Assembly (NCBI GenBank): GCA_963931865.1 | Contig: OZ007514.1 | Location: forward strand, 1,790,236 to 1,854,235 | Reading direction: 5' to 3' | From: Axinella damicornis | Taxonomy: Eukaryota > Porifera > Demospongiae > Axinellida > Axinellidae | DNA length: 64,000 nt | Shown here: piece by piece, positions 43,801-46,800 of the stretch | Position numbering within the stretch: the stretch's first letter is position 1 | Layout: each line of letters starts with the position of its first letter | Position numbers and translations under genes: made by a program | The notes under the pieces: model-generated | What the model saw: only the letters and a program-made list of their open reading frames with translations | What the model was told of the DNA's origin: nothing | Databases searched by the model: none

Positions 43801-46800
43801 GAGGGAGTGGGTGGGAGGTGGGTGAGAAGGAGGGAGGGAGTGGGTGGGAAGGTGGGAGGGAGTCAGTGAGAAGGAGGGAAGGAAGCAATGCTCCTACAGA
43901 TGTGGAGGAGGGATGATAGTGGGATGGGGGGTAGGAAGGGAGGGAATAATGGGAGGGAGGGGGGAGGAAAGGAGTAAAGGATGAGGGAGGGAGTGAAGGA
44001 TGGAAGGAATGAAGAAGCGAGGGAGGAAGAAGAAAAGAGGGAGGGAGGGAGGGAGGAGGAAGAGAGAGGAAAGGGGGAGGGAGAGGGATGAGGAGGAGGA
44101 GGAGAAGGGAGGGGGATGAGGAAGAGCAGAAGCCTCCGAGAAGGAAGGAAGAAGTCCAGGGGTGTGAGATGAGAGTAGGGGAATAGAAAAAGGAGGAGTG
44201 AAGTGACAGATAAGAAAAATGATCAGAAGTATGTACATGTACTTGACTGGTGTCTGTTTTTCTCACTGACTGTTAGCATGTGCCATTCTGTCGTTGGTCC
44301 ACAGTGTTGGTGATCGGAACAAATACGAGATCCACCTTCCTCTCCCTCCCAAGATTGATCCCACGGTGACTATGATGCAGGTGAGCAGCCGGGAGTCAGG
44401 GTTGGCCAACATGAATCCTTGATCCGTTTTCAGTTTATGGCCCCTCTGCTCCGTTGCCTTGCCTCTCTTACCCTTAATTCCCCCCCTCCCCATTCTCTTC
44501 TCCTCCTCCCTATCCTTCCCCTCCCTAACCTATAACCCTTTCTCACTCTTCCCTTTCCCTTCCCTCTCCTCTCCTCACTTCCTCTCCTCTCCACCCTCCC
44601 TTCTCTCCCTCCCCTCCCTTCCTTCCAACTCCTCCTCCCTCCCCTCCACCCTCCCTTCCCTATCCCCTTCCCTCCCCTCCCCTTTCCCCCTCCTGTTCCC
44701 CCTCTCTTCCCCTCCCTTTCTTTTCTTCCCCTCCCTTCTCCTCCCTTTCTTTTCTTCCCCTCCCTTCTCCTCCCCTCCCCTCCCTTCCCTTCTCTCCTCT
44801 CCTTTCCTCCCCTCCCCTCCCTTCCCTTCCCTCCTCTCCTCTCCTTTCCTCTCCCCCCCCCCCCCCCCCTCCCCCTCCTTTCCTACCCTTCCCATCCCTT
44901 TTCCTACCCCGTCCTCCTCTCCACAAGGTGGAAGAGAAGCCGGATGTGACGTACAATGATGTCGGTGGGTGCAAGGAGCAGATTGAGAAGCTAAAGGAAA
45001 TTGTTGAGACACCATTGCTGCATGTGAGTTTTTGTAGTATACTGGTTAGAATTGTCACTCCACAGCAATAATTACCATTGTTTGCACTCCCAGATCTGAT
45101 TGGCCAAGATTCTACATCCGTTTTTTTTAAGGTAGCATTATACCTTTACCGTTAGGGTACCTTTAACCGTCGGGGCCCCGACGGTTAAAGGTACCCTAAC
45201 GGTAAAGGTATAATGCTACCTTAAGGTAGCATTATACCTTTACCGTTAGGGTACCTTTAACCGTCGGGGCCCCGACGGTTAAAGGTACCCTAACGGTAAA
45301 GGTATAATGCTACCTTAAGGTAGCATTATACCTTTACCGTTAGGGTACCTTTAACCGTCGGGGCCCCGACGGTTAAAGGTACCCTAACGGTAAAGGTATA
45401 ATGCTACCTTAAGGTAGCATTATACCTTTACCGTTAGGGTACCTTTAACCGTCGGGGCCCCGACGGTTAAAGGTACCCTAACGGTAAAGGTATAATGCTA
45501 CCTTAAGGTAGCATTATACCTTTACCGTTAGGGTACCTTTAACCGTCGGGGCCCCGACGGTTAAAGGTACCCTAACGGTAAAGGTATAATGCTACCTTAA
45601 GGTAGCATTATACCTTTACCGTTAGGGTACCTTTAACCGTCGGGGCCCCGACGGTTAAAGGTACCCTAACGGTAAAGGTATAATGCTACCTTAAGGTAGC
45701 ATTATACCTTTACCGTTAGGGTACCTTTAACCGTCGGGGCCCCGACGGTTAAAGGTACCCTAACGGTAAAGGTATAATGCTACCTTAAGGTAGCATTATA
45801 CCTTTACCGTTAGGGTACCTTTAACCGTCGGGGCCCCGACGGTTAAAGGTACCCTAACGGTAAAGGTATAATGCTACCTTAAGGTAGCATTATACCTTTA
45901 CCGTTAGGGTACCTTTAACCGTCGGGGCCCCGACGGTTAAAGGTACCCTAACGGTAAAGGTATAATGCTACCTTAAGGTAGCATTATACCTTTACCGTTA
46001 GGGTACCTTTAACCGTCGGGGCCCCGACGGTTAAAGGTACCCTAACGGTAAAGGTATAATGCTACCTTAAGGTAGCATTATACCTTTACCGTTAGGGTAC
46101 CTTTAACCGTCGGGGCCCCGACGGTTAAAGGTACCCTAACGGTAAAGGTATAATGCTACCTTAACTCTTTAGGGGCCAAATTCTTTCTCTAGGTCATTTT
46201 CAGTCTATAGAACACTTAAACATACCCTAATTTCTGTTCCCTGGCATTGCTGGGCTCGAAACTGCTCACACAGGTAATTTCAGCTATACTGAGCATATAC
46301 GTGACTTAACCACACCCACCAATTAACGGGCTGGCGATCAAGCCTCCCGAGAAATGCCAACCTGCCGTAGCTGAAAAACGGGCGATGTATGCTGGAAATG
46401 GAGGCCCTACAAGGCAAGACAGCTACTTTCTAAGTCCATTTATGCCAAAAACGGCGGAAATGGCCCTCCCAGTGCCGACCAAGACCTTTCTATCGCGGAG
46501 CCCAGACACGGCCATGCTGTTTGCACCCTTTGGGTGCACCCACCCACCTCCCCCTGCCCTGCCCTTTCTGCTGGCGCAGAGCCTATCTCCCAAGGACATT
46601 GCCGGATGTGACATCATGAAGCTGAAAGTCTCATGACGCCAAAAGGCGCCATTGGCTGGGAAAGAGTTAAGGTTAGGGTACCTTTAACCGTCGGGGCCCC
46701 GACGGTTAAAGGTACCCTAACGGTACAGGTATAATGCTACCTTAATTATGTTGCAAGAACGCAGTAGCGGTACATATGAGATGGAACTTGGGAATGGAAT

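Follow-up and report, generated by a model that had tools for sequence, protein, structure and literature searches.

Perfect 94-bp palindromes in tandem arrays in the sponge Axinella damicornis: a probable case of a TTAA-inserting MITE amplified in place

The row of perfect palindromes found in an intron of the proteasome gene Rpt1 of Axinella damicornis is likely the product of a miniature inverted-repeat element (MITE) that inserts into TTAA and that has been amplified in place into identical rows at five loci, the Rpt1 intron among them. Under this explanation, a very small element of 90 bp would insert into TTAA, presumably via a transposase supplied in trans, and would duplicate the TTAA on insertion, a step backed by the flanks of the units and by paralogous empty sites. 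Units would then be amplified in place at the five loci through replication slippage, by unequal sister exchange or in some comparable way.

Within the window, the whole stretch of 64,000 nucleotides analyzed here, the array is composed of 11 exact copies of 94 bp arranged head to tail (TRF: 11.0 copies, 100% match), with unit starts at 45129, 45223 and onward to 46069 at a spacing of 94, and each unit equals its own reverse complement across all 94 bp (Table 1). The copy number of 11 is the count in the assembly. Adjacent units meet at CCTTAAGG. Both structural claims of the preliminary description, that the array consists of 11 tandem, identical and perfect palindromes and that the junctions recreate TTAA, were confirmed, the former by the exact copies, the self-complementarity and the TRF match and the latter by the junction sequence itself. 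The TTAA sites internal to the unit divide its 94 bp in three, a block A of 36 bp, a block B of 22 bp and a block A' of 36 bp. Overlooked in the preliminary description were the truncated 12th copy downstream of the array, the different TTAA-flanked element of ~510 bp and the spread of the unit through the genome. The array, the ~510-bp element and the 12th copy each overlap their neighbors at common TTAA sites, and sequence related to the ~510-bp CTCTTT/AAAGAG element is present at loci L015, L018 and L056.

The array had been placed inside a proteasome-gene intron, and this placement holds, with Rpt1/PSMC2 as the host on the basis of the splice signals and of the upstream exons, which match subunit 7 only. 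When the peptide of the two upstream exons (joined by eye) was compared with solved structures, 12 of 12 matches were '26S proteasome regulatory subunit 7'. Translated, the exons on either side of the intron give an AAA-ATPase stretch for which CDC48/p97 chains score above subunit 7, which also matches, an order expected from the shared AAA domain. The array is probably neutral for the gene. Long tracts consisting only of purines or pyrimidines (CTCC/GGAG repeats) also occur in the window at 43161-44900, 52845-53057 and 61195-61435, some of them adjoining Rpt1 exons.

Table 1. Features of the Rpt1 intron (positions within the window) and exact runs of the 94-bp unit in the assembly (contig and position)
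Feature	Location	Strand	Basis or remark
Rpt1/PSMC2 intron holding all the elements	45024..46919	+	GTGAGT donor after CTGCAT; CTCTAG acceptor before CCCGAA
TTAA at left end of array, target site duplication	45127..45130		TT..AA flanks in 34/40 exact runs, Rpt1 array included
Eleven identical perfect palindromes of 94 bp in tandem (90-bp element + shared TTAA)	45129..46162		Exact-copy and TRF repeat detection
Two internal TTAA sites of unit 1	45163..45188		Unit positions 35-38 and 57-60; identical in every unit
Different TTAA-flanked element, ~510 bp, ends CTCTTT..AAAGAG	46161..46670		TTAA shared with array (left) and with copy 12 (right)
12th palindrome copy, truncated	46669..46743		Left arm minus ~19 bp, 1 substitution; then TTAA at 46742-46745
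Exact run, 9 units	C1:10982878		
Exact runs, 13 and 14 units, flanking one 58-bp A+B unit (L026)	C1:11355424		
Exact run, 9 units	C3:7805702		
Exact run, 3 units, in 5S cluster (L033)	C6		
Exact run, 16 units	C7:6277459		
Exact run, 11 units	Rpt1 intron, window		

The genome searches covered the assembly that contains the window (226 Mb in 120 contigs), and the loci that were read individually are the first listed places, mainly on contigs C1-C10, while the genome counts are whole. The preliminary description had proposed searching the rest of the genome for the 47-nt half of the unit. The assembly was found to hold 170 occurrences of the exact 94-bp unit and, for its terminal 25 bases with up to 3 mismatches, 789 arm ends (408 + 381), both dispersed and in arrays; a reversed-pattern control gave 0 matches in the same assembly. 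The possibility that the feature is unique to Rpt1 was rejected, as the identical unit occurs at very many other places. At least 449 of the 789 arm ends fall outside exact units, whereas the clean arrays consist of exact units throughout, and the recent homogenization or expansion suggested earlier is plausible on this comparison. Scanned for an exact match to 31 bases of the arm, viral contigs gave 0 matches, as did the contigs of prokaryote genomes, in sets that may omit the window's own genome and near ones.

Exact tandem junctions number 68 genome-wide, equal to the sum over seven runs of 16, 14, 13, 11, 9, 9 and 3 units. The completeness of this set of runs rests on that equality, from which it follows that the other 95 exact units are without an exact neighbor. 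Taken end to end, the five clean arrays comprise 72 exact units and one exact 58-bp (A+B) piece. Exact runs of 2 units are absent, as are those of 4-8, against the 95 units lacking an exact neighbor, while a geometric distribution with the same totals, serving as a rough yardstick, would be expected to produce ~24 two-unit runs and 0.07 runs of at least nine. It should be noted that this census covers exact units, with imperfect copies adjoining several of the single exact units (L029, L046, L049, L054 and L081-L083) and imperfect clusters of two or three units at L046, L049, L053 and L081-L083. Judged as a satellite, for which long homogenized arrays would be the main form, the unit has clean arrays of 9, 9, 11, 16 and 13 + 14 copies, yet more than half of its exact copies (95 of 170) have no exact neighbor.

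Further observations from the same assembly concern cox1. Mitochondrial cox1 is present in three pieces, probably split by introns (C120:24924-30292); its product shares 92% identity with a cluster labelled Demospongiae, with slightly higher values for unnamed proteins (93%) and lower ones for the named cnidarian proteins, which makes a demosponge the probable host. In addition, a full-length COX1-like match without stop codons lies separately on a large contig (C4:14811759-14813060), for which transfer, a contaminant or some other origin are candidates.

Insertion at TTAA is indicated by the flanks of the units. Selecting loci by TTAA-containing patterns biases flank counts, and one such pattern also bars C before TTAA; for this reason the count was redone on loci chosen blind to TTAA, where TT and AA flank 34 of 40 exact runs (33 loci from a search not requiring TTAA). 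The same flanks occur at 48 of the 52 intact-ended clusters, from 65 clusters in all, many of these loci having been preselected by TTAA-containing patterns. Two loci (L075 and L076) agree in their flanks, perhaps because a single insertion was later duplicated. The TT/AA flanks delimit the element as 90 bp, GG...CC, between duplicated TTAA, and its ends and center read GGTAGCATTATACC...GGTATAATGCTACC, inverted repeats that meet at GGGGCCCC without a spacer.

The clearest proof of insertion at TTAA comes from the 5S rRNA genes. At locus L033 (C6:11341813-11342592), an irregular palindrome cluster interrupts one gene of a tandem 5S array, and four complete neighboring 5S genes in the same stretch retain an empty site with a single TTAA, three of the four being identical to the joined L033 flanks across 80 bases. 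Weaker paralogous empty sites, in which the TTAA is changed, are provided by the comparison of the nine-unit array L025 with L028 and by that of L015, where a unit is inserted within a relative of the window's ~510-bp element, with the sequence of the window, L018 and L056. The features expected of a MITE are thus present, in that the unit is short (94 bp with TTAA), is a fully inverted repeat, occurs in many near-identical dispersed copies and has a target site duplication with empty sites (34/40 runs; four 5S genes). Transposition of the unit, read here as a DNA transposon that is non-autonomous and targets TTAA (90 bp, to which the TTAA is added), is well supported. The earlier suggestion that the unit be read as a TTAA-flanked palindrome that was later amplified finds support in the flanks and the 5S empty sites, as well as in the arrays at other loci.

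The ends of the unit bear on the kind of transposase that may have mobilized it. Kolobok ends are defined as 5'-RR...YY-3' with a TTAA target (PMC9587614), and the unit has GG...CC beside TTAA. The TTAA target is also that of piggyBac, but the unit begins with GG rather than with the CCC of piggyBac ends. The GG...CC ends make a transposase of the Kolobok kind likelier than a piggyBac one, and with no partner transposase found, the Kolobok-like placement is one read from the ends. A strict piggyBac MITE was rejected, as the unit has GG ends and the one end-resolved piggyBac element of the genome begins CCCTTT; this element (L059, reading TTAA-CCCTTTATA) was the only one of the 8 piggyBac loci examined for which ends were found. 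Genes for piggyBac transposases are abundant, with at least 130 PF13843 matches in the assembly (e.g., at C2:1773997, C2:10723658, C12:3601396 and C12:5971865), several of them without stops. Four piggyBac matches have identical scores and frame lengths, which suggests recent activity.

A further 27 elements carry the terminal 14 bases of the palindrome followed by a different continuation, and each of the 8 of these 27 that were read (L056-L058, L030, L033, L040, L054 and L081) proved to be a palindrome variant or a fragment of one, with no autonomous partner found among them. A second TTAA family, TTAAGGTAG, is represented by 854 + 845 ends with up to 1 mismatch, compared with 5 + 0 for its reversed control. 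The ends of this family extend as TTAAGGTAG(G/T)AA(A/G)CA, many of its listed members are ~980 bp, the first five bases after TTAA are common with the palindrome, and a member sits between palindromes in L032 (L032:2462-3448). In places the family is itself tandem, with a period of 1748 bp (e.g., C1:3958252-3962732). No autonomous member was found among those examined in the assembly, and two long elements (L067 and L068) gave no Pfam match in their four stop-free stretches of at least 150 codons, the search containing no Kolobok profile.

How a dispersed unit becomes a row of identical copies is best seen in a derivative of the palindrome. At locus L036 the repeated unit is the 58-bp A+B piece, without the right terminal repeat, and 8 of the 10 complete B blocks there have a C-to-T change in common (1 of the 8 has a further change). 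Elsewhere in the loci read, this change occurs in 2 copies versus 124 canonical ones, many of the canonical copies being in arrays. Such a rare change shared across the array implies that L036 was most likely copied in place from one mutated unit, and in-place amplification of the 58-bp array is well supported. For the 94-bp arrays we infer in-place amplification as well, and they look amplified rather than accumulated. Counting against the in-place explanation, repeated self-insertion would leave identical sequence in the 94-bp arrays.

Self-insertion is the main rival. Transposition by itself would lengthen the arrays, with every incoming unit entering a CCTTAAGG junction and thereby doubling the preferred target. 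Each unit has TTAA at both ends and twice inside, so mutual insertion is possible among units and other TTAA elements, and elements of the latter sort do lie between palindromes in the window, L032 and L035. At L035, a perfect unit also occupies the internal TTAA of a mutated unit; as the inner unit lacks six bases at its left junction, this nesting is read as a likely self-insertion. The flanks lean to CTTAAG, a site of the sort found at array junctions, with C before TTAA in 16 of 34 runs and G after it in 20 of 34, though some runs abut other palindromes, and array junctions could for this reason be favored targets; the TTAA-selected sample, being biased, showed this tendency less. Additionally, multi-unit sites are far commoner than random insertion predicts with an estimated ~762,000 TTAA sites. 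Against growth by transposition alone stands, however, the lack of exact runs of 2 or 4-8 units next to 95 exact units without an exact neighbor, and the L036 array would be hard to make by transposition with one terminal repeat and a mutation common to most of its copies. Growth by transposition alone is considered unlikely on this evidence.

A different route would use the palindrome as its own amplification template. The excised 90 bp, sealed at its ends by hairpins, would form a closed dumbbell that could be copied by rolling circle into (TTAA + 90 bp)n and pasted into one TTAA, such that arrays of ~10 units would arise in a single step and without dimers. Such a step would account for the occurrence of arrays of at least nine units without dimers, while the 58-bp array has no need of a dumbbell. 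Kolobok is not known to form TTAA hairpins of the required type. Excised ends are sealed as TTAA hairpins by piggyBac, as described in PMC7351741. Overall, amplification through a dumbbell seems quite improbable, and in-place amplification of an inserted MITE is retained as the preferred explanation.

Perfect palindromes are hard templates for polymerases, which counts toward the possibility that the array is an artefact of assembly and that the Rpt1 locus really contains one or two palindromes. Clean arrays of at least nine exact units are nevertheless present at four other loci, with varied lengths and different flanks, one of them interrupted by a 58-bp unit (L026), and solitary units assemble elsewhere. 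The arrays measure ~0.8-2.6 kb, which is below the usual length of long reads. An assembly error confined to this locus is made unlikely by the six further exact runs, at five loci besides this one, and an artefact reducing the locus to one or two palindromes is judged very improbable.

The symmetry of the unit goes beyond what chance would produce, as indicated by the empty reversed-pattern control and by a folding energy far below that of shuffled sequences (-54.3 kcal/mol for the unit as single-stranded DNA compared with -12.7 +/- 2.7 for 200 shuffles). For 307 nt of the intron RNA, the predicted fold is -204 kcal/mol. Continual arm-to-arm conversion as the process keeping the palindromes perfect was rejected, as all four full-length copies with a single substitution (L016, L020, L043 and L045) are changed in one arm only. 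These copies thus appear to decay like any sequence, and the perfection of the others would reflect a young common source. At L040, L041, L042, L051 and L053, units have zigzag repeats of arm or core pieces, as template switching on hairpins would give, and another palindromic sequence (TAGTCTCGGTACCAGA..TCTGGTACCGAGACTA) at L056:3562-3682 is possibly a second foldback family. Selection on the array as an intronic RNA or chromatin element with a role in Rpt1, such as a small-RNA hairpin precursor or a regulator of splicing, is extremely improbable: its transcript is predicted to fold into very stable hairpins, but the unit occurs in the manner of a mobile element at very many further sites, among them a 5S rRNA gene and a different transposon-like repeat, and the sequence analyses found no tie between the unit and Rpt1.

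In laboratory hosts, long perfect palindromes tend to be unstable, and their tandem persistence in the genome of Axinella damicornis is noteworthy given this instability. Within one genome, the 94-bp unit is held in solitary form, apparently nested, and in arrays of 9-16 units (and 13 + 14), together with the mutated 58-bp derivative array. The solitary, nested and array forms sit at TTAA sites, some with readable empty sites. The genome thus offers a clean natural case for the open question of how a dispersed transposon becomes a satellite, and, with almost no exact runs of a length between single units and arrays of at least nine, burst and step-by-step models should be distinguishable.

Several known systems provide points of comparison. 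The CMITE families of Acropora corals are non-autonomous elements of ~100 bp with TTAA duplications, and their full-size tandem arrays have been ascribed to replication slippage (PMC2872659). The CMITEs are similar to the sponge unit in their size, their use of TTAA, their tandem arrays and the placement of one copy in a presumed intron, but differ in that the consensus left ends listed start with CCC, as in piggyBac, and in having short terminal repeats around a conserved interior, which the available text does not describe as palindromic (PMC2872659). In molluscs, the multimers of KolobokP have been proposed to arise through unequal crossover or circle insertion (PMC9587614). KolobokP is alike in its RR...YY ends and in the occurrence of solo units and multimers within one target duplication; unlike the sponge unit of 94 bp, whose neighbors share only TTAA, its autonomous form is generally >4 kb, adjacent copies have long direct repeats in common, and the target duplications, of 3-5 bp, are without strong sequence preference (PMC9587614). 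The preliminary description knew of no such array, and this statement is only partly upheld. TTAA-MITE arrays have been published for corals (PMC2872659) and KolobokP multimers for molluscs (PMC9587614), while among the open-access literature matches listed there is no report of tandem perfect palindromes without a spacer and none specific to sponges.

The Kolobok superfamily and the T2 MITEs of Xenopus have the TTAA target in common with the sponge palindrome, the ends being AGGRR in T2, RR in Kolobok and GG in the sponge unit (PMC6004289). No Kolobok transposase was found for the sponge family. The T2-related Xstir repeats differ from the sponge arrays in being derived from an internal segment and not from whole elements (PMC6004289). 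Similarly, the Tetris foldback transposon and TIR-220 satellite of Drosophila virilis exemplify an inverted-repeat element that supplies the units of a satellite-like array, though internal repeats of the arms were amplified there and the whole palindrome in the sponge (PMC4079207). Several MITE-derived satellites are listed in reviews (PMC9659126, PMC12628747). The sponge palindrome is of a known kind, as coral TTAA MITEs also form arrays, and is here unusually pure and spacer-less.
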